Of a DNA stretch of 64,000 bases, positions 4,840 to 57,960 are shown one piece after another. Each line of letters starts with the position of its first letter. Position 1 is the first letter of the stretch. Location of the stretch: positions 570,132 to 634,131 of the forward strand of contig KL197725.1 in the NCBI GenBank assembly GCA_000697665.1. The letters run 5' to 3'. This DNA is from Jaapia argillacea MUCL 33604 (Eukaryota > Basidiomycota > Agaricomycetes > Jaapiales > Jaapiaceae). Both the position numbers and the translations under genes were made by a program. A model generated the notes under the pieces. The model was given only the letters and a program-made list of their open reading frames with translations, was not told the origin of the DNA and did no database searches.

Positions 4840-7776
4840 TTAATTCGACGACTGCCATCGATGATTCGGTCTCTACAAACGTAGGCGGTGCAATGCACAA
4901 TACACATCCGAAACAAGGAGCGATATTTACGCGAGTTGTACGGAAGTTGATACGGAAATCCTAGATCATTTGGCTCGATTCTTGGATTAGCTGAAGCGCC
5001 GCCGTACTCCGAGGTTTCAAATCGCACTTGAACGGTAACGGATGACTGTTCAATGGGTCACAGTGAGGCAGAGCACCGCAATAAGAAGGGATTTTCACTT
5101 GCCTGACAAGCCCTCCAGTATATCCACCATCTACGCTGACTTCACGACCGGTGCTATCCTTGGACTTGGTGACGTTGAATACACTGAGCACAGCAACGGC
5201 GGTAGCCCAAATTTCTGCATCAGCCAATGATCTTCCGGGACAAATTCTGAATGATGCAGTGATCAACAACCTCTTCGCCTCAGATACCATCTAGACAAAC
5301 GGACCTTCGCCCAAAGCCAAAGTAAGCCATCGGGTACTCCTTGAGACTCCCGTCATCATTCAAAAACCTTTCAGGCATGAATAAATCAGGGTTCGGGAAT
5401 GTCGTATCGTCGTGGAGCATGGCCCTTCAATGGACAATCAGATCTCCAGTGGATGGGAGGCAACGTCGCAGCATACCAAGTATTCCCAATCACTGCGGCT
5501 CCTACGTGGGGCTGTTAGTTATTTGGAAGACGAGACCACTCAACTGTCACACCTTTTGGAATATAGTATCCCTGGTATACATCCTCTTCGCTCGTGGCAT
5601 GGGGGACAGCTGATCGAGAGCCAATCTATCAGCTTAACCTTCGCCAGCATCATTTGGAAACTTACCCAACGGGGCGGCGGGGTGCCACCTCATCGACTCT
5701 CTAACAAATGCGTCGACATAGGGTAAATTTTTTCTATCCTCGAAAGTGGGAAGTCTGTGCGTGCCAATCACAGAATCTATCTCCGCTTGCGCCTTCCTTT
5801 GGGATTCAGGGTGAAGCAAGATGGCCAGGACGACAGTCGACATCCCAGCAGTCGTCTATCACAAACTACGGTTAGGCTGTGACAATAAGGAAAAGGCTTG
5901 TTCTTTACAGTATCAGCGCCAGCTGAAGCCCGGACTATGTTAGGACGCCGTTGGAAATAAAGGGAACGGCGGATTGAACACTGACCGGCGTAGATTATTC
6001 CAGAAACACGCTTGATGGTTGCCTCTTGTTCTTCTACATCGCCATGCGGGTCAACTTTGTCCAACAGTTCCGATGTCACGGAAGGCAAAGCAGTGCCAGC
6101 GAGCTAGAAAATAGTATTAAACTTGCCCCTCAACATTAATGACAGCCACGAGAATTGACATACCATGTGATGTTTTACGAATTCAAAGGGAGCATTCTGC
6201 ATTTCATCCGTGAGCATGCGGCACTTTTGTGCAAACCTTTTGAACCCCATTCCCGGCAACCATCCAGGAAGGTGCTGCACTGGAAGGCTGATGAGCGCGA
6301 TTTCCCCTGAGAACGGAATTTTGACCTACACATAGGGAAGTAGTTGACTAAGGTGGCTCCGGGGAAGAACGCTTGAGAGAGCATCGCCACCGCATCCTCA
6401 ACAATTTGGACAAAGCGATCATTTGTCGGAGCAACCTCATACCCGTATGCGATGGACATAACCGTTGCTGCTGCGATACTGCGAACGGAGGTGTGAGATA
6501 TGAGAATCGGGGAGGAAGTGGAGGAAACGGCCTCACTAGCGAACATGAGCCAAGAAATCCTCTGGCGTGGCCAATATGTTGCGAAGGGCAAAGTGAACAT
6601 TCTTCATAATGATGGGATGGTACTGGGCGGTTGCGTCTGCGCGGAATTCCTGGTGAACGAGTCGCCTGTGGCGACGCCATTTATCGCCGTAGGGCATAAG
6701 ACCGGTGTTGTAGTCCCAACCCATACTAAGGAGATGAGAGGATCATTAGCGTTATGAATTTGAAAGGGAATACGAAGCTCACAGTTCAGTCATCTTTCCC
6801 ATGATCCTATCTGAGTAAATTTTGGAGCGCTTTTCGAAAAGGTCCACTGCAACTCTCTCCGAATTCACGATGACGACATGGGAGCCGAAAGCCTGGACGT
6901 GCATGATATCGCCTACCACAATGTATGTTAGTCGGTTTACATGACGGATAAAGTGGTGGAAGTCGACAATACCATATTTCTTGCCCCATTCAGTGTAAGT
7001 TAGCCATGGGGACTGCTGCGGTATATCACGAGCATTACCGATAATAGGTAACTGTTTCGGACCAGGAGGGTAGGGTAAGCCCCGGGTGTTACCACGTTTT
7101 CGTGCAAAGTAGGACCAAGAGAGCAGAAAAACGATCAAGAGGACGGCAAGGTCAAGCATTGTGATCGCACGCAGGATGGTTCAAGAAAGAGCTGTTATAT
7201 AGAGGGGAAGCCAGCGACGATAGCCCGATACAAGAATAGCATCTCAGCAAGTTTCTTAGAACCACTCCTCAGATGATGATACATGTGGGGTATGGGCGCC
7301 GTGTCAGTGGGCGAGTGTATCGGCAGTACTTAGGAGAATACCGTGAGTGTTGTATTCAAGAGCTGAAGCGCTGAAGTTGGCTGCTGCCAGTGTTGATCAC
7401 CGGCCCGTGGCAGCCATGAAAAGATAGAACCAGGCATCAGATCGTATTGATCGGTCTTGTCGACCAAAAAAAAACTCGATGGATGTGCCATAGGGACCAG
7501 GCTTAAGTAGCACATATAACCTTGGAGGCGACATAAGTAGAGAACGATCTGGGAGCATCGGAAGAGCGAAACTGTCAGTGTTCGCTAATTCAGTCGCGCC
7601 CCAGCCACCAGATGATCACGAGATTATCACGCGTCGTATCACGGCTTTACTGGCGCATGGCAACAGCTTCGTCGCCGTCACGTTCTCCACGCACCCCTGC
7701 CCATATCCACCACCTCGAAAGCAAACGGAAGTTGCAACCTACTGTGAACGAGTGCGTTTGTCGCCCGAGCCTGGTC
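4781..7776. repeat. Tandem duplication unit 1 (P450 block)
   Basis: This 3.0-kb block and the block at 7777-10796 align along their length: the end of the CHAT coding region (VPFERW), the whole P450 gene and its upstream DNA up to the ULA1 start region. The upstream region of copy 1 (about 7330-7776) resembles the ULA1 upstream region (about 10340-10796), for example a shared stretch around GTGAACGAGTGCG. The ancestral order was therefore CHAT, P450, ULA1. Confidence 0.75.
4961..7159 (-). CDS. Cytochrome P450 monooxygenase, copy 1
   Basis: Multi-exon gene of about 500 codons. The start at 7159 gives a hydrophobic membrane anchor (MLDLAVLLIVFLLSWSYF), then the PPGP hinge (LPYPPGPKQLPIIGNA). 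After splicing short introns the diagnostic parts read through: the I-helix AGADTT, the K-helix ExxR (VRESMRWHP), the PERF segment (MPERFLNDDGS) and the haem loop FGFGRRICPGRSLADAE, whose Cys is the iron ligand. The stop is at 4961 after QLIQESSQMI. The family oxidises small hydrophobic substrates on the ER membrane with a P450 reductase; this sequence resembles fungal secondary-metabolism and xenobiotic P450s, but the substrate cannot be named. All exons appear open. It lies tail-to-tail with the CHAT gene, about 120 bp away. Confidence 0.9.
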
Positions 7777-36546: not shown

Positions 36547-37488
36547 TCACTGATGAAAACGCATGGGGGGTTTTGGAGGTGGTAACATAGGAGGTGGCAG
36601 CGTAGGGCGGGGAGGTAACAACATAGGACCAGGAGGCGCCAACATGGGGGGTCCCAACATAGGCCCATCATCCTCTCGATCTCTCGGCAACACCTCAACA
36701 GCTACAACAACAGACGAAACCTGCAACGTCTTCTCATGAACGAAAACCAACCCAATCTCCGTCATCCCTTCACTCGCAGCATGAAACCTAAACGTCCCAC
36801 TCTTCCTATCCACATCCAAAAGTTGGATGAATCGAAGATCCGTCTTGGCGTCCATCCATCCAGCTTCTTCGACTGGAACTACGATCTCGAATGGCTGGCC
36901 GGCTTTTACTTGTCGAGCGGGGATTTGTGTGCGAAGAATGGGCCGGCGGATTCGATCGTTTCCTGGGATTTCTTCAGCTTTCAGGCAATGGTCGATATGA
37001 GCTGCTAGGTCTTTCAATTGCGAGCTCGATTGCAACCCTCGTAAGGTCACAAACACGTTCCCCCTAACAAAAAGGATATAACCACCCCCTCCTCTCCCCA
37101 TCAACCCCCTCTGCCCCAACCCCACATTGCTCGGGAAAACGGTATCCAAAGGCGCAGAGATACACCCAAGCGACTCTCTCATCGCCCCCAACGCAGCCTC
37201 ATGCTCCTCACATACGCAAATCGTGATTTCGAGCATGTCAGGCCCACGGGTGAGACGCCAGTATGCGGAAGCGCCTCCGTGTGAGGTTGGTTCGATGGTT
37301 TCGAGTGTGAGGGTCAGGCCGCTGGCGCTGAGTTTGTTAGAGGTGGAATGGAGGAGGGAGGGGTAGTTGATTTGGGAGAGGTGGATTGGGTCGGGGTTGG
37401 GGAGTTTTGAGCGGTTCATCGCGTCTTCTACTGAACTCATTTTGGGAGGCTTGGGGGGAGATGGTAACGAAGGAGAAATGAGCGACAA
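36547..37488 (-). CDS. Solo C-terminal-module paralogue of the Cys-His-Asp family
   Basis: One exon of 313 codons; start at 37488, or MSSVEDAMNRSKL at 37440. It matches the C-terminal half of the three large genes at 41843-54950: SAYWRLTRGPDMLEI for SYWRLGS..VEI, CISAPLDTVFPSNVGLGQR, GYILFVRGNVFVTL, AGWMDAKTDLRFIQLLDVD, and FRFHAASEGMTEIGLVFVHE. There is no N-terminal catalytic domain. The last 90 residues fit a beta-sandwich. The tail repeats PML-x-PP (PMLGPP, PMLAPP, PMLLPP, PMLPPP), a motif found once at the end of each large paralogue. Function unknown. Confidence 0.75.
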   Translation of the reverse strand: MSLISPSLPSPPKPPKMSSVEDAMNRSKLPNPDPIHLSQINYPSLLHSTSNKLSASGLTLTLETIEPTSHGGASAYWRLTRGPDMLEITICVCEEHEAALGAMRESLGCISAPLDTVFPSNVGLGQRGLMGRGGGGYILFVRGNVFVTLRGLQSSSQLKDLAAHIDHCLKAEEIPGNDRIRRPILRTQIPARQVKAGQPFEIVVPVEEAGWMDAKTDLRFIQLLDVDRKSGTFRFHAASEGMTEIGLVFVHEKTLQVSSVVVAVEVLPRDREDDGPMLGPPMLAPPGPMLLPPRPTLPPPMLPPPKPPMRFHQ

Positions 37489-41842: not shown

Positions 41843-43944
41843 TTACTTAGGAGGTTCCAACATCGGACTCTCCTTGTTTCCAGGCAATATCTCGACAGCC
41901 ACCTTGATCGACGTCGTCTGCATCGTGTCCTCGTGAATGAAGACCAATCGGATCTCGGTGGAACCTTCGCTCGCAGCGTGGAATTTGAAGGTCGCCTGCT
42001 CCCGGTCGATGTTGATCAGCTGGATCATCCGAAGATCAGTGGTGGCGTCCATCCACCCAGCTTTCTCAACGGGGGCCGACACTTCGAACGTCTCGCCCAA
42101 CTTCACCTGACGACTATGAACCTCTCCCCGAAGGATAGGGGCATCGAGCCGCCCACCCACATCCACTTCATCATCCTTCAGCGACTGCTCAACGAAAGCA
42201 GCTATTTCCTTGAGGGCTTTGCTCGAAGCCATTCCCTGCAAGGTTACGAAGACGTTGTCGCGGACGAAAAGGATGTATCCGCGTCCGCCCGCCCCACTCA
42301 GCGAACGCTGCCCTAGGCCCGCATTCGAGGGGAAGATGACATCCAAAGGAGCAGAGATGCACGAGAGGGTCGCTCGCATTGCATCCAGGGCGGCATCATG
42401 GGTTTCAGCCACGTCAAGGTCAATCTCCACCACGCTAGCCTTGCTGCCGAGGCGCCAGTAAGAGTGAGACCCCTGCGCGCTTGGCTCTACATTCTCAGTG
42501 GTGAGGTTTATGGCCAACTTCTGCACCACGGCATTCTTAAGGGAGGTATAATCGATCCGCGTGAAGCGAGGGGGATCAGAGTTTTCGACTTTGGCACGAT
42601 TCAAGGCGAGTTCCACCGATGCCAAGGTTCCAGGCAGGATGGAAGCGGCTGGGGATGCGGTAGAGGCGAGGGCCAAGGGTTGGAGCGAAACAACACCATT
42701 CTGCCTAGGATCGATGTCGTTGACATTACCAGGATTGGTGTGATAGAATTCATCATAGTAGTTGGTTGCTAGAAAGGCCAACGTCAGAGGGGATGGTAAG
42801 TAGGTTTGTCACGGGACTTACTGGTATCGATGGCGGCTGTGAGGTATTCGTTGAGTCGTTCCCCACCCACGTGAGGGCCGCTGGTGGCGTCGAAAGTCAA
42901 GTTATTCAGTGGGTTGTTATCCACTACGAGCGCGATGAACGCATGGTTTCCAAAAATGCTCCTTGGCTTCAATGTTTGGCCCTGGACATAGTTCTGTGGC
43001 GCCAATGAGAGTGGACTGTAATAAGTGTTGGCCCAGAACGGATTGTTACAGGGGTTGGGATAGCCTTTGAGACTGACGCAACGACATGAGACGCATAAAC
43101 AGATAAAATTGGAAAGGACATACGTTGTGGTGTTGATCAATCCATAGGGCTCCATAAAGTTCCAACGGACCCTGTCATAGTCTGGGTGGACAGAGAAGGC
43201 GACCTGTACGATGCCCGCCATGTCGTAGCAATTGATCCGGTTAGCAGCTCCAGCCTCGAGATCCGCGAAGTATTGCTCAAGCTGATACGTCCCTCCTAAC
43301 TCGCTCGAGCTATAGCGAGGCGCGCCATACACAATATCATACTGAAACACTCCTTTGAACACGCTCTCCACAAGAGCGCGGCGAGCGTCAGCCACACTCC
43401 ACACGATTTTACTGCTGTCGAAGATGGACAGATAAGCGCGTAGCAGATTGACGGATATCCCGAAGGACGACCACAGCGCCACTGCAGCGCCCACGGGAGT
43501 TCTGAAGGTGTACATCTCCAACCGTGTGGTGTTCCCGGTCACTGCTATTTCTCCGTTTCCATCAGCCAGCACCCACACGAAATCACCCCAATACGCGATA
43601 GGGCAGGGGAGGGGATTGGTGATGGCGAGATCGGTTACTCTCAGGTAACCGGAACCGACAATAACTGTGGGGGAGGAGAGAACTTCTATGCCATTCAAGA
43701 GAGCGCGGAGATAGAGGCCCGTCGACGTGGTCCTGTCAATTTGACAATCAACTGCGAGCGCGACCGTAGCCGATGAGGTGGTATCAAAAGCGGTGAAGGC
43801 ATTGTCGGGGATAGGAGAGCCGTCGACCCAAAGCCATGTCCAGACATTACTCTGGACTGATGGCCGGTAATTAGGGCCCAGGCGAACGTAGAGAGGGACA
43901 GTAGATGCCGCTTGGATTGCGGTAATCTGGAGAGAGTCGGCCAT
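41843..43944 (-). CDS. Transglutaminase/papain-like Cys-His-Asp protein, copy A
   Basis: Three exons joined over introns 43073-43123 (51 bp) and 42769-42821 (53 bp); the spliced frame is exactly 665 codons plus stop. Residues 1-150 look like a beta-sandwich (VPLYVRL, NVWTWLW, FTAFDTTSSATVALA). Residues 190-345 hold a candidate catalytic triad: Cys239 in NCYDMAGI, His317 in GNHAFIALVV and Asp335 in LTFDATSGP. This order and spacing fit the transglutaminase-like/papain fold. Residues 365-665 are the second module, with SYWRLGSKASVVEIDLDVAE, PSNAGLGQR, GYILFVRDNVFVTL and a terminal beta-sandwich (TFKFHAASEGSTEIRLVFIH), ending PMLEPPK. There is no signal peptide. The reaction and substrate are unknown. 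Confidence 0.75.
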
Positions 43945-44014
43945 GGTCGGTAGGAAGTGTCTTAACTGACGGGTGGGGACAGCTTTAGTCTTTCGACTAC
44001 CCTAACGAACCGCC

Positions 44015-44022
44015 TTTTTAAA
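44015..44022 (-). promoter_or_regulatory. TATA-like element of copy A
   Basis: TTTTTAAA, about 71 bp upstream of the start codon; the counterparts in copies B and C are TTTTAAAA at 74-76 bp. Conserved while the surrounding DNA drifts. Confidence 0.5.
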
Positions 44023-44148
44023 GAAGATAATCATCCCGGGTCCCTAAAACCGAAACAATGGGTCACAGTGGTCGGGCACCACAATGACGGACTAGTCAGT
44101 TCAAAGATCGTACCCTCAATCTTCGCCATTGGATGGGACTCAGAATTG

Positions 44149-44410
44149 GAAGGGTTAAGTCAAAGTTGGAGAAAACCGGCCTCCGTAAAGATCTGCTCAC
44201 GAGGACAACATGCTACTCCCCAAGCCATGTGGGGATTGGAAGGGATGAGACAACGTCGCAGAAAGCTGGCCTCCATAAGGATGAGTTCGTAAGTGCCCCA
44301 AGCCATCTAGGAGATCAGAAGCGCTGAGACCAAGTCGGAGAAAACTGAACTCCATAACTATGTGTTCACGAGGGCAAAAAGCGACATCCCAAGCCATATA
44401 GGGAGTTCCA
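44149..44410. repeat. Three-unit degenerate minisatellite
   Basis: Units begin at 44149, 44239 and 44318 (about 90, 79 and 92 bp). The shared core runs from GAAGGGATGAGAC through GGAGAAAACTGGCCTCCATAA to CCCAAGCCAT. The corresponding place upstream of copy B (about 49899-50006) has a single unit, so the expansion is private to copy A. Confidence 0.65.
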
Positions 44411-45039
44411 TAGTAGGCACCTGTCACGGAGGGCGGGGAATAGGTGGAACGAGGAGGGATGGGATGAAATGTTTGGCGTCTAAAGCAATCGGAATATCGC
44501 AATCCCCTACTAGCCGATGCGCCGGCGTGGAGCAATTCGCAAGCCAAGACAAGATCTTTGAGAGCATTCCCTAGGGCGGCAGATGAAGTTCTGGGCAAGA
44601 GCCTCGGAAAGTCGTGCTGTAGGTGGAAGAGAACCGGCGCTGACAACGCGATTGGTAGATACATGGGGAAGATCCTTCTCATGAATAATATTCGGCAGCG
44701 ATGTTGGAAGAAGAGGCTGGCGCCTACCGAAGGTTTTCGGTGCTTGAACACTCCGAGACCACACTATCGCCATGTCTGATAGGAGCTGATGTAGGACCGC
44801 AATTTCTGAATTCTCCAGGGGCGCTGGTCGATCACATGCGCCCCACGTTTGCACGGCGACCTATCGCTCACATTGCCCGTCGAGCACGAAAGTGTTGGGG
44901 TCACCACGCGTATCAGATGACGACCGTCATTGAAGGACAGCATTTGGACTTCGACCGGCCACAAGGTGGCTATACATGGATGGCAGAAAAGCAGCAGAGA
45001 TCAACCGGACGGTCACGAAGGGAGCTGAATGCACAGGAC
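44411..45039. other. Upstream duplicated spacer of copy A
   Basis: Non-coding. It aligns with the spacers at 49990-50092 plus 51970-52110 and at 55100-55400 (ACCTGTCACGGAGGG, GCAAGATCTTTCATG-like, AGAGCCTCGGAA). No intact gene seen. Confidence 0.55.
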
Positions 45040-45480
45040 TAGGATGCTTGGTGGCGGAGGAAAGGCAATGGAATGGAACAGAACTTACCCCGAAAGGGAA
45101 TATCCCGACAATTGCCACGTGGACGGAGATGTGAGACGACCTGACCAGTGCCGCCGACGCCACCATCCGCAATGAATAAGTATCTCGAGTAGATGCAATC
45201 CAACCTCCACAAGAAACACAAGACCTCCCGCAAACATTCATACTCAAAACCAAAGTCAAAACACAACGATTCCTCGAGTCAAACCGACCGAACCCTTTCC
45301 TCCATAGCCCTTCCCACCCTCCTTCCATCCGACCTCACCGTCAGCCAAGACCTGCAACAATATCCGCAACGAAATATTCCTTGCCCTCGTGCCAGCAAAG
45401 CCAGCACCATCTGTTTCTTTCACCCTCTACGATCATGCCCAATCTCTTGACAATTATCAATAAATATACTTCACTTGATA
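45040..45480 (+). pseudogene. 5' relic of UTP7, unit A
   Basis: Matches the UTP7 promoter and first exon at about 55410-55770: the CCACGTGG promoter motif, TCTCGAGTAGATGCAATCC, then the Lys/Ser-rich N-terminus (KKHKTSRKHS, NDSSSQTDRTLSS). The initiator region and frame are degraded and the homology stops inside exon 1. Downstream DNA then matches the start of the next tandem unit. Confidence 0.75.
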
Positions 45481-45658
45481 CTATCATTTCCCTACTTGTG
45501 CAAAACTTTTCATCAAATGCGTATATCGCGGCAACAAATGATCCTGAACCATTCTGGTTTGGTGTACAAGTACAATGATATCTTCCTCCTTATATTCATA
45601 TTTTACCTGATTTATTCATCGTGAGGAATGAGCGTCGGGCACCGACCGAGACGACGAC
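45305..45658. repeat. 354-bp exact direct repeat, left of the gap
   Basis: Identical base for base with 46592-46945. This copy ends exactly at the first N and the other begins exactly after the last N. That geometry is expected from two contigs that overlap but were scaffolded with an inserted gap. Confidence 0.85.
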
Positions 45659-46591
45659 NNNNNNNNNNNNNNNNNNNNNNNNNNNNNNNNNNNNNNNNNN
45701 NNNNNNNNNNNNNNNNNNNNNNNNNNNNNNNNNNNNNNNNNNNNNNNNNNNNNNNNNNNNNNNNNNNNNNNNNNNNNNNNNNNNNNNNNNNNNNNNNNNN
45801 NNNNNNNNNNNNNNNNNNNNNNNNNNNNNNNNNNNNNNNNNNNNNNNNNNNNNNNNNNNNNNNNNNNNNNNNNNNNNNNNNNNNNNNNNNNNNNNNNNNN
45901 NNNNNNNNNNNNNNNNNNNNNNNNNNNNNNNNNNNNNNNNNNNNNNNNNNNNNNNNNNNNNNNNNNNNNNNNNNNNNNNNNNNNNNNNNNNNNNNNNNNN
46001 NNNNNNNNNNNNNNNNNNNNNNNNNNNNNNNNNNNNNNNNNNNNNNNNNNNNNNNNNNNNNNNNNNNNNNNNNNNNNNNNNNNNNNNNNNNNNNNNNNNN
46101 NNNNNNNNNNNNNNNNNNNNNNNNNNNNNNNNNNNNNNNNNNNNNNNNNNNNNNNNNNNNNNNNNNNNNNNNNNNNNNNNNNNNNNNNNNNNNNNNNNNN
46201 NNNNNNNNNNNNNNNNNNNNNNNNNNNNNNNNNNNNNNNNNNNNNNNNNNNNNNNNNNNNNNNNNNNNNNNNNNNNNNNNNNNNNNNNNNNNNNNNNNNN
46301 NNNNNNNNNNNNNNNNNNNNNNNNNNNNNNNNNNNNNNNNNNNNNNNNNNNNNNNNNNNNNNNNNNNNNNNNNNNNNNNNNNNNNNNNNNNNNNNNNNNN
46401 NNNNNNNNNNNNNNNNNNNNNNNNNNNNNNNNNNNNNNNNNNNNNNNNNNNNNNNNNNNNNNNNNNNNNNNNNNNNNNNNNNNNNNNNNNNNNNNNNNNN
46501 NNNNNNNNNNNNNNNNNNNNNNNNNNNNNNNNNNNNNNNNNNNNNNNNNNNNNNNNNNNNNNNNNNNNNNNNNNNNNNNNNNNNNNNNNNN
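45659..46591. other. Assembly gap (933 N)
   Basis: Run of unknown bases. Any open frame across it is meaningless. Its exact-repeat borders suggest that its true length is zero or negative. Confidence 0.99.
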
Positions 46592-46945
46592 TAGCCCTTC
46601 CCACCCTCCTTCCATCCGACCTCACCGTCAGCCAAGACCTGCAACAATATCCGCAACGAAATATTCCTTGCCCTCGTGCCAGCAAAGCCAGCACCATCTG
46701 TTTCTTTCACCCTCTACGATCATGCCCAATCTCTTGACAATTATCAATAAATATACTTCACTTGATACTATCATTTCCCTACTTGTGCAAAACTTTTCAT
46801 CAAATGCGTATATCGCGGCAACAAATGATCCTGAACCATTCTGGTTTGGTGTACAAGTACAATGATATCTTCCTCCTTATATTCATATTTTACCTGATTT
46901 ATTCATCGTGAGGAATGAGCGTCGGGCACCGACCGAGACGACGAC
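46592..46945. repeat. 354-bp exact direct repeat, right of the gap
   Basis: Second copy of 45305-45658: the end of the UTP7 relic, then the left end of the TIR element (from 46768). Confidence 0.85.
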
Positions 46946-47395
46946 TCTGAAATGTGGCGGCGCGCGGGATATGCAATATTTCTCCGCGCGTGACAATCGT
47001 GACTCAAGCAGGCAAACGTCACGAAATTGTCACGCAGATTTGGCAGGGAGTTTCGTCCATCCTTCATTATCAGTGCCTTCCACATCTCTCAGGGAGCCGG
47101 AGAAATTTGTATTAGTATTCAATTAGGGTTTATATTTGAATCCCAAAAGCACGAGACGAGAGGTTTAAAGGATCTGGAGGATCTTGGGGTCTGAAGGCCT
47201 GATGCCACCCAAGATTTCGACCTTTTCGCCCCCTGTTGTACAACCACTTCATCCATTAATAATCGGACTTCACAATCCTATTCGTACAGTAGGTAAATAG
47301 TCCCCTGAATTTTTGGAGAGGGATCCGATGTCTGTGGAAGCCACAAATTGCGTTTTGCACATGTTGCGCGTTTTGCACAAGTAGGGAACCGATAG
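46768..47395. mobile_element. Short non-autonomous TIR DNA transposon (MITE-like)
   Basis: The left end begins CTATCATTTCCCTACTTG and the right end is its inverse; 19 bases (TTCCCTACTTGTGCAAAAC) match perfectly as inverted repeats, plus the outer CTATC. The element is flanked by TA on both sides (46766-46767 and 47396-47397). Unit B has the empty site ACTTGATAAGCTAAC at about 52665. The interior (628 bp) has no transposase frame. A second GTTTTGCACA lies just inside the right end. A partial left end also sits at 45481-45658 because of the gap-edge repeat. TA duplication and simple TIRs suggest a Tc1/mariner-pogo type helper. Confidence 0.8.
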
Positions 47396-47572
47396 TAAGC
47401 TAACATACACGCATAACGAATAACTACACCGAGGCAACTTTGAAACATATAGATGGAGATAACAATGCCCGGACTCCGAAACACACCTAATCATACACTA
47501 GCACTTCACATTCGCGAAATCCAAGACAAGTTTCAAGTTCTGCGGAGCAACTGCACGACGGGCGCGGAAATT

Positions 47573-49697
47573 TCAAGGAGGCGCCAACATCGGACTGCCG
47601 CCATCTCCAGGAAATATCTCGATAGCCACCTTGATAGATGTAGTCTGCATTGTGTCTTGGTGAATGAAGACCAATGTAATCTCGGTGGAACCTTGGCTCG
47701 CAGCGTGGAACTTGAAGGTCGCATGCTCCTGGTCGATATTGATCAGTTGGATCATCCGAAGGTCAACACTAGCGTCCATCCAACCAGCCTTCTCGACAGG
47801 GACCGTCACTTCGAAGGTCTCGCCCGATTTCACCTGACGATCCGAAACCTTTCCAGAAACGATGGGCACCTCTAGTTGCCCACCCTCATCCACCTCATCA
47901 TCCTTCAGCGACTGGTCAACGAAACCGGCTATTTCCTTCTCGAGGTCATAGCTCGAAGCCATGCCCTGCAAGGTTACGAAGACGTTGTCGCGGACGAAAA
48001 GGATGTATCCATGCCCGCCTACCCCACTCAACGAACGCTGACCGAGGCCCGCGTTCGAGGGGAATATGGTATACAAAGGAGCGGAGACGCAGGACAGGGC
48101 CTCTTGCATTGCGGCCACGGCGGCGTCATTGGTTTTAGCCACGTAAAGTTCGATCTCAACCATGCTAGAGTCACTGCCGAGACGCCAGTAAGAGCGAGAG
48201 CCTTGCGCGCTTGACTGTACATTCTGAATGTTAAGGATGATGCCCAACTTCTGCACCACGGCCTTCTGTAGGGAGTTATAATTGACCCGCGTTAAGTGTG
48301 GGGTATCAGATTTATCGACTTTAGCGCGATCCATGGCGAGCTCCACTGGTGTCAAGCTGCTGGGCTTGGTGGAAACGGCTCGGGATGCGGTAGACGCGAG
48401 GGTCAAGAGCCCAACAACACCAACCTGCGTGGGATGGATGTCGTTGACATTACCAGGAAGGGTGTGATAGTAGGTGGTGTAGTAGTTGGTTGCTAGAAGA
48501 GCCAAGGTCAGGGGGATGGTCGATGAATTTGTTTCGGGACTTACTGATATCGATGGCGGCGGCGAGATATTGGTGGAGTTGTTCGTTACCCACGTGAGGA
48601 CCGCTGGTAGCATCCAAAACCAAGTTGTGCTCCTCGTCGCCGTCAACTTCGAGTGCGATAAATGCATGGTTTCCAAACATACTCCTTGGCCCCGTCACGG
48701 GGGTTTGGTCGGGGTCATAGTCTTGTGGTGCCAGGGGCAGTGCGTTGTAGGAAGAGTTGTCCCAGAACGGATTATTACAAGGTAACGGATGGCCTTTGAG
48801 ACTGACGCAGCGACATGAGATACTTACATAAAGAAAAGGGGAGAGGACATACAATGTGGGGTTGATCAATCCATAGGGCTCCATGAAGTTCCAACGGACC
48901 CGGTCGTAATCAGAGTGGACAGTGAGGGCAATCCGCACGATACCCGCCATATCGTAGCAATTTATCCGCATACCAGCTCCTGCCTCGAGGTCCTGGAAGT
49001 AAAGCTCGAGAAAATACGTCACACCGAATGCGTCCGTGGTATAGCGAGGGCGGCCATACACATTCTCATACGAGAACGGTCCTCCAAACACTCTCTCCAC
49101 CAGATCGCGACGAGCGTCAGTCTCGTTCCACGCTCTGTTATTGTTGTCGAAGATGGGCAGATAAGCGCGGAGCAAGTTAACGGATATGCCGAATGGCAAC
49201 CACAGCGCCATTGCAGCGACTATGGGGGTCTTGACGACATATATCTCCAACGGTGTAGTGGTTCCGGTCACCACCGTTTCTCCATCTCCATTAGCCAGCA
49301 CCCACACGAAATTGCCCCTGTACGCGATGGGGAATGGGAGAGGGTTTGTTATAGCGAGGTCGCTGACCATGACTTCCCCGGCACCCGTGCCCCAAGGATT
49401 GATTGGGGTTGGGGAAGAGAGGACTTCTATGCCGTTGAAGAGGCCACGGAGATAGAGGCTCGTCGGTGCGGTCAGGTACAAATCACAAGCCACTGCGAGT
49501 GCTACCGTAGCCGACGAGGTGGTATCGAAAGCAGTGAAGGCACCGCTGGGTATAATGGGTGGATTAGGATCGTTGGCAATCCAAAGCCACGTCCAGAAGT
49601 CTCTCTGTACGAACGACCGGGAACCATCGAATTGGCGAATGTAGAGAGGGACAGTAGACGCCGCTTGGACTGAGGTGACGTTGAGATAGTCGCCCAT
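47573..49697 (-). CDS. Transglutaminase/papain-like Cys-His-Asp protein, copy B
   Basis: Start at 49697 (MGDYLNVTSVQAASTVPLYI). Introns at 48802-48852 and 48492-48543 occupy the same positions and phases as in copies A and C; the spliced frame is 673 codons plus stop. The triad segments are kept: NCYDMAGIVRIALTV, GNHAFIALEV and NLVLDATSGPHVG. The C-terminal module has SYWRLGSDSSMVEIELYVAK, PSNAGLGQRSLSG, GYILFVRDNVFVTLQG and TFKFHAASQGSTEITLVFIH, ending SPMLAPP. Open throughout, so apparently functional. No export signal; probably cytosolic. Confidence 0.75.
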
Positions 49698-49770
49698 GGT
49701 AGGTGGGGAAGTGTCTGACTCCTGATGGGCGAAGAAAGGTATAGCCGTTCGACTACCTGAACATACAGCC

Positions 49771-49778
49771 TTTTAAAA
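49771..49778 (-). promoter_or_regulatory. TATA-like element of copy B
   Basis: TTTTAAAA, 74 bp upstream of the start codon, in the same place as in copies A and C. A CGACTACC/CGACTGCC motif lies between it and the start in all three. Confidence 0.5.
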
Positions 49779-50092
49779 GTGAATCACCGTCGGGGTCCAT
49801 CAAACCGACACAATGGGTTCCAATGGCGGCGCACCATGATAACAAACTAGCCAGTTCGAAAACCGTACCCTCGGCTTTCGTCATTGGATAGGACTGAGGA
49901 TTCTCAAGACGGGCGGTGTGGAGGCGAAGCTGGCCTCCATACAAATGCACTCACGAGGGCAACCTGCTACATCCTAGGAGATCCTAAGCCATAGAGGGAG
50001 TTCCATAGTCCTGGTACCTGTCACGGAGGTGGGGGATAGGTGGAACAAGAAAGGGTGGCAAGAAAAGCTTTGAGTCTCAATGCCACAGTCGC

Positions 50093-51969
50093 CCCGTTTG
50101 GGACGTGTAATATGCGACCAGTACGGCGGATAAGATCAGCTTTGCTTCAGAGCTTCAGCCTTTCCCTTGAATTCCGATGTGACGGAGAGTCTGAAACCCC
50201 GTGCGCCACTGGCCTCGTAATTGAGTTGGGACCATTTCCTGCGAGTTTGGTGACTGTACGCCGACCACCAATCAACGAGGTCTTGCGGAACAAGCAACGA
50301 TTGAAGGGTACCGCTTGCATCACGTCGGAATCGGAGTGTATTTGATTTGTTCAGCCTCACCCCGATCGAGTACAATCGCGAAGTCGCGCAATCCTCTCCA
50401 TGTACACAACCTGGAGTCTTGGTGCATGTGGAGATATCTTCCGCCCAAAGGCATGTGCACCTCATGAAGATATCAAACGAATGTGAAATTGATAGATAGC
50501 AGACTCTGCGATCAATCCATGTACGATGTAATGATGTATATTGCCTCTCCCGGGCTCCTCTAATATGGTCTCTTGAACTCCTCACTGATCTCATTTTGCC
50601 TCAGGGTCATACTGAAGTTTGGGGCCGGAAGCATCATAGTGATCGCTGTCACCATCCGCAATCGTGAAGGTCTCCATCTATACGGGCGACCAAAGTCGAA
50701 TCGATATGCATCCAAGAGAAGTGACCCGTACTAACCTGGATGTGGACGCCGGGTGTGCTCTTTTTCATGGAAACAGCCGTCATGGTAGGTCCGCGGTTAG
50801 GGGTGTTGCCTGTTTGGAAGTTCACGCCAGAGTTCTGGCTGCTGGAACTACGAGTTCGTCGACGAATCAGTATTATGTGGAGATGTGAGCAGGAGATGTA
50901 TTGACAAGACTTCCGCGCCTTTGTTTGTGAAATTTGTGAGACGACGGACAGCGCGAGTCGACACAATCTAAGCACCGTGAGTTGCGCCCCCGAGCGAAAA
51001 GCAAAGGTTAGACATACCGTTGATGCCACAGCCGCAGGCACATCAAAGATAACACTCATAGTAGGGTTCAAGTTCAACAACATGAAGGTCTATCAAACAT
51101 GAATGTCAAAATTTGAGTGAACAATCCAACGACCGAGGTATATATGCACAGTAGCAAGCACGTTGGCGACGAATGCGATGACAAAGTAAATCAGCCCGTC
51201 ACCCCAAATCATGTTCATAAGCGAACTTCGTCCAATTGTGTTATTGAAGACAAGCTTATAAGCAGTGAGCCGGTGATGATGAGATCGAAAATCATGGCTT
51301 TGATAAATGTGGCTGAAAAAACGGTGTTGTTGGTGTGAACAATCGCGCATCTTTCTCCGGCGACATATACGGCGGTCAGGAGAACACCTTTCGATAAGCA
51401 GTGAGCGACATGATAACTTCCTATTCATGGATGAAAATACCGTACCTTGGACGATCAAAGATCATTGACCGAGGATGATAACAACCAGAGGGATAACGAT
51501 GTATCGCTTCTGTGACCATACAGCCATCGTAGAAGACGGTTGGTGCCGGAATTCACGTCACCAGGAGAAATGTAGACGTACGTCCTAATGGACAAGTTGA
51601 TAATGGCAAAAGCGATAGTAGCTTGATCAGTGAGCTGCGAAGTTGTGGATTAGATGACGTTGTCCACAATAAGGACAAGAGACACCTGATTAAAAGTGTA
51701 CAGAGCCTGACACTTCACAGGTCTGAAATACCAGAATGAGGATGTAAGGTTTACATGACATACAACGCGTCCCGTCGCGTCGATTTTACAACCACTTACG
51801 TTGTGGAACCCAAAGCAATCGCACTGGGGTGGGGGACAAGTCAGCGTCATAGATGGGTTATGGGTAAAGATCTACGCACATTCCAACCATGGCAAATAGC
51901 AGACGGTATCGACTGCCGAAGTAGAAGATCTATCACAAGAGCGAGCCCCTTGATAGACGACGACATCTT
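50093..51969. other. 1.9-kb insertion private to unit B
   Basis: In unit C the sequence runs CACAATCGCC directly into GACGAGCACTCGAC. In unit B the same two flanks are separated by this segment, and unit A also lacks it. I see no terminal inverted repeats and no clear target duplication. It carries the decayed membrane-protein gene described next. Confidence 0.65.
50650..51860 (-). pseudogene. Decayed multi-pass membrane protein gene
   Basis: Pieces in several frames match a familiar Agaricomycete membrane-protein family with about seven hydrophobic segments: TMAVWSQKRYIVIPLVVIIL, GVLLTAVYVAGERCAIVHTN, NTVFSATFIKAMIFDLIITG, GDGLIYFVIAFVANVLATV, MLLNLNPTMSVIFDVPAAVA and VRRLTNFTNKGAEV. One in-frame stop (TGA at 51462-51464, where the family usually has Trp after GH) and a frame change near 51265 break it; intron borders elsewhere look normal. 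Function of the intact family is unknown. Confidence 0.65.
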
Positions 51970-52109
51970 CGAGCACTCGACTGGCTGATGCTCCAGCGTA
52001 GAGCAATTTACAAGTAGGCAAGATCTTTCATGCCATTCCATGGAGCAGCAAATGGAGTTCTGAACCAAGAACCTCAGAAGTTCGTGTCGGCGAGGGAGTA
52101 AGCAAGGTT

Positions 52110-52669
52110 GAGGCATGCCTGAAAGGAAATGGACGGAAAATGCCCCGAAAAGGAATATCCCGGCAACTGCCACGTGGGCTGGGATACCACCTTACTTTGT
52201 TGTCGCCGACACCACAATCCACAACAGACTCGCTAATATCTCGAGCAGATGCAATCCAACAACGCAAACGTTCCACAAACATTCAAACTCAAACTCAAAA
52301 CCAAACTCAAAACCAAAACCAAAACCAAAACCAAACGATTAAAACCGACCGAAACATGATGGACTCGCTAATGTCTCGAGTAGATGCAATCCAACCGCCA
52401 AAAGAAGCGCAAGACCTCCCACAAACATTCACACTCAAAACCAAACCACGATTCCTCGAGCCAAACATCCCAAACCGACCCGACGCTTTCCTCGTAAGCC
52501 CTTCACCATCCGACCTCTCCACTGTCAGCCAAGACCTACAACAATATCCACAACGAAAAATCCCTTGCCCTCCTCCAGCACAGCCAGCGCCATCTGTTTC
52601 TTTCATTCCCTAAGAACGATTATACCCAGCCTCTTGACGATCATCAATCGACAAATATACTTCACTTGA
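52110..52669 (+). pseudogene. 5' relic of UTP7, unit B
   Basis: Matches the UTP7 promoter (GGCAACTGCCACGTGGGCT) and exon 1. The start segment occurs twice in tandem: GACTCGCTAATATCTCGAGC near 52228 and GATGGACTCGCTAATGTCTC near 52356. The N-terminal Lys/Ser-rich code follows but the frame ends at the unit boundary. It cannot encode the WD40 domain. Confidence 0.75.
52278..52340. repeat. AACCAAA-type microsatellite
   Basis: A run of CAAAAC/AACTCAA hexamers (about ten units) inside the UTP7 relic of unit B. It grew from the Lys/Gln/Asn-rich code of the exon 1 fragment. Confidence 0.7.
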
Positions 52670-52849
52670 TAAGCTAACATTAAACATATGTGCAAAACGG
52701 ATACACCAAGGCAATTTTGAAACATATAGATGGAGATAACAATGGCCCGACTCTGAAACGCACCTAATCATACACTGGCTCTTCACATTCGCGAAATCCA
52801 AACCAAGTTTCAAGTTCTGCGGAGCGACCGCATGACGGGTGCGGATATC

Positions 52850-54950
52850 TCAAGGAGGCGCCAACATTGGATTGTCGTCACTTCGAGGCCATATCTCGAT
52901 AGCCACCTTGATCGATGTAGTCTGCATCGTGTCTTCGTGAATGAAGACCAATTGAATTTCGGTGGAACCTTCGCCCGCAGCATGGAACTTGAAGGTCGCG
53001 TGCTCCCGGTCGACATTGATCAGTTGGATCATCCGAAGATCCACACTAGCGTCCATCCAACCAGCCTTCTCGACAGGGGCCGTCACTTCGAAGATCTCGC
53101 CCGATTTCACCTGACGACCTTGAACCTCTCCACGAAGGATAGGGGCCTCTAGCTGCACACCCACATCCACCTCATCGTCTTTCAGTGACTGGTCAACGAA
53201 ACCGGCTATTTCCTTGAGGTCTTCACTCGAAGCCATGCCCTGCAAGGTTACGAAGACGTTGTCACGGACAAAAAGGATGTATCCACGCCCGCCCACCCCA
53301 CTCAACGAACACTGCCCTAGGCCCGAGTTCGAGGGGAAGATGACATCCAAAGGAGCGGAGACGCACGAAAGGGCCTCTTGCATTGCACCCACGGCGGCGT
53401 CGGGTGTTTCGGTCACGTGAAGTTCGATCTCAACCATGCTAGAGTCACTGCCGAGGCGCCAGTAAGAGCGAGAGCCCTGCGAGCTTGACTGTACACTCTG
53501 AGTGGTAAGGTTGATGCCCAACTTCTGCACCATGGCCTTCTGTAGGGAGTTATAATTGACCCGCGTTAAGTGTGGGGGATCAGATTTATCGACTTTGGCA
53601 CGATCCACGGCGAGCTCCACTGATGTCAAGCTTCTGGGTTCGATGGAAACGGCTCGGGATGCGGTAGACGCGAGGGTCAAGAGCCCAACAACACCAACCT
53701 GCGTCGGATGGATGTCGTGGACATTACCAGGACGGGTGTGATAATAGGCGGTGTAGTAGTTGGTTCCTAGAAGAGTCAAGGTCAGGGGGATGGTAAATGA
53801 GTTTGTTTCGGGACTTACTGGTATCGATGGCGGCGGCGAGATATTGGTCGAGTTGTTCGTTACCCACATGAGGACCACAGGTAGCGTCCAAAACCAAGTT
53901 GTGCTCCTGGTTGTCGACTTCGAGTGCGATGAATGCATGGTTTGCGAACATACTCCTTGGCTCCACGTTTTGGTTAGGGTCATAGTCTTGTGGCGCCACT
54001 GATAATGGGCTGCAATAAGCGTTGGCAAAGAACGGATTATTACAAAGCAAGGGATGGCCTTTGAGACTGATGCAGCGACATGAGATACTTGAATAAAGAA
54101 AATGGGAGAGGACATACAATGTGGGGTTGATCAATCCATAGGGCTGCATGAAGTTCCAATGGACCCGGTCGTAACCAGGGTGGACAGTGAGGGCAACCTG
54201 TATGATACCCGCCATATCGTAGCAATTTATCCACATAGGAGCTCCTGCCTCGAGATCCTGGAAGTAAAGCTCGAGCCAATACGCCACACCGAATTTGCCC
54301 GCGGCATAGTGAGGAGCGCCATACACAGTATCATACGAGAACGGTCCTCCAAATACTCTCTCCACGAGTGCGCGGCGAGCGTCAATCTCGGCCCATGTTC
54401 TGTTATTGTTGTCGAAGACGGGCAGATAAACGCGGAGCAAGTTAACAGATATGCCGAAGGGCATCCACAGCACCATTGCAGCGGGGGTGGGGGCCCCGAA
54501 GACGTATATTTCCAACGGTATAGTGGTCCCGGTCACCACTGTTTCTCCATCTCCATTTGCCAGCACCCACACGAAATTGCCCCTGTAGGCGATGGGGAAC
54601 GGGAGGATGTTTGTTATAGCGAGGTCGCGGACCGTGACTTCTGCGGCACCCGTGCCCCAAGGATTGATCGGGGTTGGGGAAGAGAGGACTTCTATGCCGT
54701 TGAAGAGGGCACGGAGATAGAGGCTCGTCGGTGCGGTCAAGTTGAAATCACAAGCCACTCCGAGCGCTACCGTAGCCGACGAGGTGGCATCGAAAGCAGT
54801 GAAGGCATTGCTGGGGATAGGATAGCCGGCAGTCCAAAGCCACGTCCAGACATCCCTCTGTACTGACGGCCGGGAACCATCGAATTCACGAACGTAGAGA
54901 GGAACGGTAGATTTCGCTTGAACTGAGGTGATGTTAAGATAGTCGCCCAT
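52850..54950 (-). CDS. Transglutaminase/papain-like Cys-His-Asp protein, copy C
   Basis: Start at 54950 (MGDYLNITSVQAKSTVPLYV), chosen over an upstream in-frame ATG at 55100 because it aligns with copies A and B and follows the TATA-like element. Introns 54067-54117 and 53767-53818; spliced length 665 codons plus stop. Triad segments: NCYDMAGIIQVALTV, NHAFIALEVDN and NLVLDATCGPHVG (Ser changed to Cys next to the Asp). The C-terminal module is complete and ends NPMLAPP. It is divergent from UTP7, the ancestral neighbour, with about 580 bp between starts. Confidence 0.75.
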
Positions 54951-55449: not shown

Positions 55450-55533
55450 GGCTGAGATACGAAGCTGCAAAAAAATCTAGTACCCACCACTGCTTAGCTT
55501 GGAATTTCGTTGTCGCCGACGCCACCATCCGCC

Positions 55534-57960
55534 ATGGACTCGCTAATATCTCGAGCAGATGCAATCCAACCGCTCCACAAGAAACGCAAAACCTCTCACA
55601 AACCTTCAAACTCAAGACCAAAATCAAAACCAAACGATTCCTCGAGTAAAACATCCCAAACCGACCCAACGCTTTCCTCAATAGCCTCTCACACCCTCCT
55701 TCCAAAGTCCCTCCGGACATCCTCTCCACCCCCGCCATCAACCAAGACCTACAACCACATACCCAACAAAAAACTCCGTTCCGAACTCACCAAGACTTCC
55801 GCAAATGCACTCCGAGCCAAAGCCCTTGTAAAAGATGCGCAGGAGCTGTTATTGGTCGATGAGCCAGGGAAAATGGAGGTGGAAGGTGAGATGGAGAGGA
55901 CGTGGAGAGTGGGTCAGGAGGAGATTGTCCAGAGTGTAGGAGGCGAGGCTGCGAAGGGGCGGAAAGAGTTGAAATTGGATGGTGGATCGTACAGAACGAG
56001 GTATACAAGGAACGGGAGGTGAGTGATTTCGTCCCTCCATTCTTGGAGTATTCGATTCCAGTCAACCCGCTTTCGTCTCGATCCTTGCCATATCTTAACC
56101 CTTTTCTGACTTTCGCTGTTCAGACATCTGGCCATAGTTGGCAAGAAAGGTCATGTCGCAACGTTCGACTGGCAAACAGGGAACCTACACACCGAACTGC
56201 ATCTACAAGAAACGTGTCGAGATATCACGTAGGTAAATTCCTCTCCTCGTCACTTCGCACCAAAATTCCCTTCCGTTTCCGCTGTCCACTCATCGGCGTT
56301 TTGATATCCTCAACTGATTTCTACCCCCAAGGTTCCTCCATTCACACTCCCACTTCGCAGTCGCCCAATCCAAATACGTCTTCATCTACGACAAAGATGG
56401 CGTCGAACTCCACAAACTCAAAGATCACATCGAACCTACTCGCCTAGAATTCCTACCATATCATTGGTTATTAGCTTCAGTCGTATGTCTCCTTGCCCCT
56501 TCAGTTCGGAATGACATTTATATGAATTGCAGGGCAACGCAGGCTACCTAAAATACCTAGACACATCTACAGGCCAACTCCTAACCCAATACCGCACCGC
56601 CCTAGGTCCCTGTACAACAATGACTCAAAACCCGCACAACGCCGTCATCCATCTCGGCCATACCAACGGTACAGTAACACTCTGGACTCCAAACCTTCCT
56701 CACCCCGCAGTCAAACTCCTCGCACACCTCGGACCCGTCACCTCCATTTCAGTTGATCCTTCTGGTGTTAACGGAGATGGTGCCGGAGGAGGCGGGGGGA
56801 GGTATATGGCTACTGCTGGTGCGGATGGGATGGTCAAAGTTTGGGATTGTAGGAATTGGAAAGGTGCGGTTAGGGGTTGGAGTGTTAGAGGTGGGAGTTC
56901 TGGCGGTACTGGGATTGAGGTTGAGTGGAGTCAGAGAGGGTATCTGGGAGTTGTTAGTGGAGGGAGTGTCAACGTAAGCCTCGTGTCGTATTTTCCTCGA
57001 TCTTTCGCTAACGGTTTTCATCTTCCCACTGTGTCCAATAGGTGTACCCACCCGCAGCAATCCACACACCCCACTCGAACCCCACGCTCCCACCTCTCTA
57101 CCTAACCCACCCAATTCCTCACCGGCCTCTCACATCCGCTCGGTTCGCGCCTTTCCAGGATATCTTGACGATAGGACATGCAGGTGGTGTGTCGAGTATT
57201 CTAGTGCCAGGTGCTGGGGAGGCAAACTTTGATAGTGGAGAAGCTGATCCATTCGAGGGTAGGAAGGCTAGGCGGGAGAGGGAGGTTAGGGGATTATTGG
57301 ATAAGGTACGTTTTGTGGTTCGAATTACTTTTGAAATCGATACTAATAGCCATTGTCTTCGACGTAGATCCAACCAGACATGATATCTCTGAATCCAGAC
57401 TTCGTTGGGTCCCTCGCTCCACCCTCGAAACTCACAACTGCCACCGATGCTACTCTCGCCTCACAATCAAAATCGAAAGCGGGTGAGGTACCGTATGCGA
57501 GACTACCGAGGTTGGAGAGGTTGAGAGTTAGTGGGAAGGCTGATGAGACTGAGTTGCATGATTCGGATGAGGAAGAGGGCGAGGAAGAAAGTGAGAAAGG
57601 GAAGGGAATGTCGAAAGCGGAGAAAGAGAAAAAGAAGATGAGGGGGAAGAATAAGAGTCTGAAGAGGTACGTCGTTTTTGTTCATGGTGTTTTCGATGAT
57701 ATTGATTGTATCGGTGTCATCTTAGGTACCTACGGAAGCAACGGAAGAACGTTATTGATCCGCGAGCCGTAAGTCTCCTCTCCTTCTCTCGACCGTATAC
57801 TGCTAAGACCTACTTTTTTTGACGCTATTTGTAGGTTGCGGTCCGCAAGAAACTTGAACACCAGAAGGTAGAAAGACAGAAAGCGAAGGAGATTGCGTCA
57901 GGTGTTCGGGAGGTTGAGAAACCCTCTGCACTGGATCGGTTTAAGCGGGCGGAGAAGTGA
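55534..57960 (+). CDS. UTP7: U3 snoRNP / small-subunit processome WD40 protein
   Basis: Start at 55534 (MDSLISRADAIQPLHKKRKT). The basic N-terminus leads to KELKLDGGSYRTRYTRNGRH, then across introns to LAIVGKKGHVATFDWQTGNL, the WD-repeat core (YHWLLAS, NAVIHLGHTNGTVTLWTPNL, YMATAGADGMVKVWD) and the BING4-type C-terminal region (FQDILTIGHAGGVSSILVPG, GEANFDSGEADPF), ending VRKKLEHQKVERQKAKE and SALDRFKRAEK. This is the order seen in yeast Utp7 and human WDR46, nucleolar proteins of 18S rRNA maturation. About eight introns. It is the intact parent of the two 5' relics upstream. Confidence 0.92.

Follow-up and report, generated by a model that had tools for sequence, protein, structure and literature searches.

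The stretch of DNA described here, called the window below, comprises 64,000 nucleotides of contig KL197725.1 from the fungus Jaapia argillacea MUCL 33604 (positions 570,132 to 634,131 of the forward strand, assembly GCA_000697665.1). It contains three neighbouring genes on the minus strand, A, B and C, each encoding a putative cysteine enzyme fused to further modules, and a fourth gene, D, in which the later modules stand alone (as shown in Table 1). A sequence-only reading of the window, made earlier without database searches, had proposed three complete genes of 665, 673 and 665 codons, with two introns at the same places, expanded in tandem and encoding cytosolic proteins of no named family. 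What is added beyond it is an effector-type context in bacteria, the stand-alone gene D and the occurrence of the second module as a separate bacterial gene.

The gene models were confirmed by splicing, the reading frame of A, B and C being open from ATG to the stop codon once both introns are removed. The introns, of 51 nucleotides (phase 2) and 52 or 53 nucleotides (phase 1), lie at positions that match across the copies, and the encoded proteins share 457/662 residues (A–B), 460/661 (A–C) and 543/665 (B–C); the tandem expansion proposed earlier holds. Intron 1 is in frame and free of stop codons in all three genes, and its retention would add 17 residues to the protein. Since these 17 residues are missing from the bacterial proteins of loci L001 and L007 described below, intron 1 is very probably genuine. 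When NHAF-x(12-22)-DAxxGPH was expressed as a degenerate DNA pattern, it matched three places in the window, which are the three copies, and a mean of 0 in 100 shuffles. Hydropathy showed no strongly hydrophobic N-terminus in the products of A, B, C and D, in keeping with the cytosolic location proposed.

The ratio of nonsynonymous to synonymous substitution rates (dN/dS; pairwise, Nei–Gojobori) among A, B and C is 0.23–0.65 in the N-terminal, catalytic, partner and C-terminal regions, and 0.38–0.65 in the catalytic region. In the linker (residues 358–429) it is about 1 for A against B and C and 0.69 for B–C, the other regions being lower. The proteins of A–C are therefore under constraint, and the linker that joins the enzyme half to the remaining modules is loose.

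In Pfam, the A, B and C proteins gave no significant match, the sole one being at chance level (Desulfoferrodox in B, E 0.27), and in NCBIfam they gave zero matches. Searching PDB sequences with the window proteins gave nothing significant (two xylosyltransferase 1 sequences at E 2.2), which agrees with the earlier view that no named family is present. In profile searches of PDB, exon 3 and the Cys part found nothing and the partner alignment found one entry at E 1.2; the N-terminal domain had no library match, either as the gene A protein or as the N-terminal piece of C. Literature on this enzyme family in fungi was not found with the wordings tried, and other wordings were not searched.

Table 1. 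Positions of genes A–D, their introns and the parts of gene A in the window.
Feature	Position	Strand	Description
Gene A	41843..43944	minus	665 residues: N-terminal domain, Cys-His-Asp domain, partner module, C-terminal beta-rich domain
Gene A introns	43123-43073, 42821-42769	minus	
Gene A N-terminal domain	43480..43944	minus	residues 1-155
Gene A catalytic domain	42822..43479	minus	residues 156-357, intron 1 inside
Gene A Cys239 codon	43228..43230	minus	from exon map
Gene A His317 codon	42943..42945	minus	
Gene A Asp335 codon	42889..42891	minus	
Gene A partner module	42161..42553	minus	residues 430-560; related by profile to the enzyme-adjoining gene of L013
Gene A C-terminal domain	41885..42160	minus	residues 561-652; rich in beta strands in a model of low confidence, weakly like chagasin-type inhibitors by profile
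Gene B	47573..49697	minus	673 residues, layout as gene A
Gene B introns	48852-48802, 48544-48493	minus	
Gene C	52850..54950	minus	665 residues, layout as gene A
Gene C introns	54117-54067, 53818-53767	minus	
Gene D	36547..37440	minus	297 residues, stand-alone partner: second and third modules, Pro-rich PMLxPP tail, no enzyme domain

The catalytic half and its bacterial relatives

Transglutaminase-like enzymes show the motif C-x-[DH]-x-A at the nucleophile, followed by a His and then by an Asp. The corresponding residues are Cys239, His317 and Asp335 in copy A, as numbered in the sequence-only reading, C247, H327 and D345 in copy B, and C243, H321 and D338 in copy C. The catalytic half has three bacterial relatives, which were aligned with A–C (the L001 protein entered as two pieces and the window copies read through intron 1). 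The triad does not vary in these homologues, Cys, His and Asp being invariant in 6 of 6 proteins, and 19 of the 158 fully occupied columns are invariant, including N-C-x-D-x-A, the H and D-A. The aligned rows are 24–43% identical to the L007 row, and additional motifs are CNNPF (in 5 of 6 proteins) and GPH or GPY.

As for the enzyme class, the transglutaminase cores fetched for comparison carry C-x-[HD]-x-A, C-E-H-Y-A and C-Q-D-H-A being among them. From the 34 cores fetched, 26, all bacterial, were used, and 8 whose slice contained a stop or lacked C-x-[DEHQ]-x-A were dropped. When the six-protein profile was compared with these 26 cores by hhalign, Cys was placed on Cys in a weak alignment of 18 columns (E 0.0073, probability 5.3%), and the score of 22.8 exceeded those of all 200 column shuffles (top 20.6) and of the reversed profile (13.1). 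The catalytic half probably has a transglutaminase-like fold. The transglutaminase-like type proposed earlier is partly supported: the C-x-D-x-A motif fits it and the profile register favours it weakly; no family member scores above the family cut-off, and A, B and C have no Pfam match of that kind. Compared with the superfamily as a whole (Transglut_core, Transglut_core3, and the Tox-TGase described in passages of PMC3482391), the family shares the Cys-His-Asp order, C-x-D-x-A at the nucleophile and, in a weak alignment, the Cys-on-Cys register, and differs from it in falling below the Pfam cut-offs, in the extra CNNPF and GPH/GPY motifs and in having no solved relative by sequence.

The enzyme activity of A–C is itself a prediction, as is the fold, and the conserved Cys, His and Asp might be structural residues of a dead scaffold that resembles a transglutaminase. 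Inactive transglutaminase domains of this sort are known in polymorphic toxins, yet those dealt with in the relevant part of PMC3482391 have lost at least one triad residue, whereas all three are kept here in every protein aligned. Together with the dN/dS of the catalytic region, this leaves the dead scaffold a low probability.

The first bacterial relative, L001, was found by scanning a genome collection (one genome per species, 84,980 species) with the DNA pattern. Three stretches matched, and one was a true relative; L002 and L003 were dropped, their matches lying in open reading frames (ORFs) that presumably resemble dienelactone hydrolases. The pattern undercounts, because one Asn codon is fixed in it (AAC), and L007 would be missed. 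L001 is a contig of 3,076 bases from a metagenome bin of the Zoogloeaceae (genome G001) with an enzyme ORF of 537 residues, and BLASTP of its protein gave E 4e-9 against copy C read through intron 1 (56/201 identical) and E 4e-7 against copy B. The order on the contig is the tail of a VgrG gene (DUF2345, 103 bits), a DUF4123 gene (33.9 bits, cut-off 25.8) and the enzyme.

The second relative, L007, lies on a 37-kb IMG/VR record and was found by a scan of viral contigs once the L001 relative had joined the profile. Its order is VgrG (TIGR03361, 256.9 bits, cut-off 186.35), two small ORFs, DUF4123 (69 bits), an ORF, the enzyme relative of 471 residues and an ORF of 262 residues with a hydrophobic N-terminus; genes of Mu-type phages (Mor, Gam) follow further on. 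The two small ORFs behind VgrG (1137–1913 and 1919–2335) could be a second effector and its partner: the former matches Tag1_C (E 0.0036) and Tlde1 (E 0.083), both below cut-off, and the latter has no match. Downstream of the enzyme there are also two enzyme-like pieces, at 5830–6159 and 6239–6466 (330 and 228 bases), which are 92% and 55% identical, the second having two stop codons.

The third relative (locus L013 in genome G886, E 8.3e-6) was the sole new match when 399 genomes from the order to which G001 belongs were searched. Its protein of 1096 residues contains two LamG domains, with the catalytic region near the C-terminus. In two of the three bacterial loci, L001 and L007, the enzyme thus lies in a VgrG–DUF4123 cluster. 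Such clusters are where the cargo effectors of the type VI secretion system (T6SS) lie, DUF4123 being an adaptor. The window genes resemble these effectors through the two relatives, and differ from them in having introns and a fused partner, and in that no T6SS part or delivery system was found among the 10 neighbouring ORFs scanned in the window.

Further searches added no relative. No new one was found in sets of 398, 199 and 398 genomes (the first and last sets largely the same), and the lone match in 274 genomes, G068, was dropped, only the low-complexity N-terminus of P0001 being matched. By tblastn there was no match for copy C and P0006 in plasmids, or for P0001 and P0004 in plasmids and phages, and none in a near search for L007 in phages or a distant search for part of L007 in E. 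coli genomes. No relative came from viral scans that used A1, A4, P0001 or the DNA pattern, nor from a first scan of genomes with A4; the final viral scan with A9 returned the L007 record again and nothing else. G886 itself excepted, its genus (9 genomes) had no relative of P0006, the gene beside the L013 enzyme, and its family (9 genomes) had no enzyme region.

This rarity of bacterial members fits the main rival account, according to which A–C encode an intracellular cysteine enzyme of an ordinary fungal kind (protease, transglutaminase or deamidase), with extra modules that serve in substrate binding or localisation. On this view, gene D is a paralogue that lacks the enzyme, which some bacteria acquired for use as an effector. 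The toxicity of any family member is moreover a prediction. The account is credible, if on the whole doubtful.

The partner module, gene D and the C-terminal domain

A single second module had been proposed behind the enzyme. The extra part is indeed conserved, but is better read as two, the partner module and the C-terminal domain (about 430–560 and 561–652 of copy A). On profile comparison, the partner module is a neighbour gene of the enzyme in one bacterium, is fused to the enzyme in A–C and is free as gene D.

The bacterial counterpart is P0006, an ORF starting 12 bases downstream of the stop codon of the enzyme gene in L013. With every filter switched off, the partner profile was run against 352 ORFs of at least 100 codons from the window and six loci, 348 of which are not the window's own copies. 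With the second-module profile built from three copies, P0006 comes directly after the window copies and gene D (E 0.0083; next 1.7), and hhalign ranking also puts it first (E 1.9e-4). After gene D was added as a fourth copy, P0006 was first of the 348 with 17.5 bits (E 5e-5; next 0.9). Pairwise comparison does not make the case: plain BLASTP of P0006 against exon 3 of C was not significant (E 0.79), and hhalign of this pair gave E 0.0024 with a probability of 12%. It is therefore the profile ranking on which the kinship is based. Overlapping the end of P0006 by 4 bases is another ORF (L013, 10285–11334), with a weak HYR match below cut-off, which may belong to the same operon.

Gene D has an ATG start of its own, and shares 66–71 of 131 partner-module residues with A–C (50–54% identity). 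Its dN/dS against the partner module of A–C is about 0.2 with saturated dS, so that gene D is an old, constrained gene and no fresh truncation. When the N-terminal and the catalytic domains of copies A and C served as tblastn queries, no enzyme remnant was found near gene D at E<=1. The 3′ end of the gene (36547–36663) encodes a Pro-rich tail with repeated PMLxPP, and A–C finish in a single such motif. For the ordinary-enzyme account, a separate partner gene beside the enzyme in L013 is unexpected, if the module is a plain substrate-binding extension, and the own ATG and constrained sequence of gene D also speak against it.

The C-terminal domain was modelled as all beta in a very poor model of exon 3. 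A chagasin-like identity (Inhibitor_I42, PF09394) was considered for it with nine I42 domains found in 180 genomes; hhalign gave an alignment of 55 columns (E 0.0012, probability 19%), which 0 of 200 column shuffles equalled. However, the NPTTG and RPW loops, present in 7 and 6 of the nine fetched I42 domains, respectively, are missing from A–D, and a hidden Markov model search with the C-terminal domain did not rank I42 proteins first (best E 6). Because the inhibitory loops are missing and I42 is not first in that ranking, the domain was not filed under I42 and this identity was rejected.

Surroundings of the array

The 10 ORFs scanned near A–D include matches to TPR, F-box, NUC119 and AAA/Dna2. 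Neighbours of eukaryotic type such as Dna2, NUC119 and F-box, together with the very short introns of A–C, are in keeping with a fungal chromosome. Within the array there is a run of 933 N (45659–46591), and its flanks of 300 bases each (45305–45604 and 46592–46891) are identical; the gap may therefore have arisen in assembly, or a further copy may be hidden in it. On the plus strand, similar ORFs with a DAIQ(P/Q) start are found between the copies and next to them (45180–45578, 52002–52613 and 55498–56022), so the duplicated unit seems to take in the first part of a divergently oriented neighbour.

A proposed control of the enzyme by its partner

One bacterium has the partner as a gene of its own, three genes of the window have it fused to the enzyme and a fourth has it free, and the simplest reading of this arrangement is an enzyme under an inhibitory or immunity-type partner. 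A–C may thus encode a regulated, toxin-like cysteine enzyme, of the type of bacterial toxins, in one chain with a partner that inhibits it or confers immunity, and this reading is tentatively favoured here. The products of A–C would be cytosolic transglutaminase-like enzymes of the Cys-His-Asp kind, in which the thiol would attack a glutamine or a peptide carbonyl, leading to cleavage, deamidation or cross-linking of a protein; the enzyme would be of a kind found in the T6SS cargo clusters of bacteria. The fused partner would restrain it in cis, acting as a regulatory or immunity domain, and gene D would supply the same partner in trans. The whole array could then be a toxin-like enzyme under control, used in defence or in self/non-self conflict. 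Both the inhibitory role of the partner and this biological role are what we infer from the data above.

Several points weigh against this reading, some concerning the partner and others the fold. First of all, a gene adjoining a toxin-like gene need not be its inhibitor, and a relative of the partner adjoins the enzyme in only one of the three bacterial loci. The ORF that follows the enzyme in L007 (P0005) was tried as a partner relative and was not detected in three profile tests; the L001 contig stops 72 bases past the enzyme ORF, and any downstream gene is beyond view. In L013, where the partner relative does lie, the enzyme is a LamG protein, and no T6SS gene was found among the 9 of 39 ORFs scanned, so that this relative departs from the T6SS cargo effectors. 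With respect to the fold, the match of Transglut_core3 to the bacterial relative P0001 is far below the cut-off (E 0.11, 12.8 against 26 bits), and this domain was seen in 1 of the 7 rows when the catalytic region was aligned. A structure predicted for the L007 fragment was of poor quality (predicted local distance difference test, pLDDT, 42.9; predicted template modelling score 0.41); for what such a model can show, a helix begins at the Cys, the His directly precedes a strand and the strand that follows ends at the Asp. Foldseek with this model returned 12 matches at E<=10 and none at <=0.001 (best E 4.4), 6 of the 12 non-significant matches being what we take, partly by title, to be thiol proteases or transglutaminases; the fold model of exon 3 was unusable (pLDDT 30.9).

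When compared with known effector–immunity pairs, the family is alike in that P0006 adjoins the enzyme in L013, and unlike in that the same partner is not seen in a second bacterial locus. In a structural survey of T6SS effector–immunity pairs (PMC11148199), the main text is without the words transglutaminase, papain and cysteine protease. Toxin domains shared by bacteria and fungi are described in passages of PMC3482391, which reports toxin-type transglutaminase domains and the lateral transfer of at least 13 toxin domains into fungi. The enzyme here would likewise be a toxin-type domain common to bacteria and a fungus, and it differs from those fungal domains in that the partner module is fused to the enzyme and is also kept as a free gene. 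A bolder proposal, that the fungus took in a bacterial effector together with an immunity-type partner gene, fused and multiplied them and kept a free partner as a eukaryotic single-chain poison–antidote system, is rather unlikely.

A further possibility by analogy is a Spok-like element, in which A–C would harm cells without them, the partner half would protect and D would confer resistance only. Tandem copies, a killing-like and a partner-like domain in one chain and a free partner gene are what such an element might show, and Podospora SPOK is a known example, a single protein in which separate domains carry killing and resistance according to the passages concerned in PMC6660238. The separation of harmful and protective functions, tested for SPOK and proposed for A–C, is thus common to both; as given there, the SPOK domains are a predicted nuclease and a predicted kinase, and the likeness to A–C is one of architecture. 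For A–C, the drive features (presence/absence polymorphism, spore killing and mobility) would be a prediction, and gene D is old by its saturated dS, which makes a Spok-like element improbable.

If the favoured reading, that of a toxin-like enzyme restrained by its partner, is true, a toxin-type enzyme fused to its own partner lies near a free copy of that partner, and how a eukaryote keeps a toxin of bacterial type would become directly testable. In addition, an unnamed catalytic family gains a bacterial context and a predicted nucleophile, and one substrate search could serve both kingdoms.

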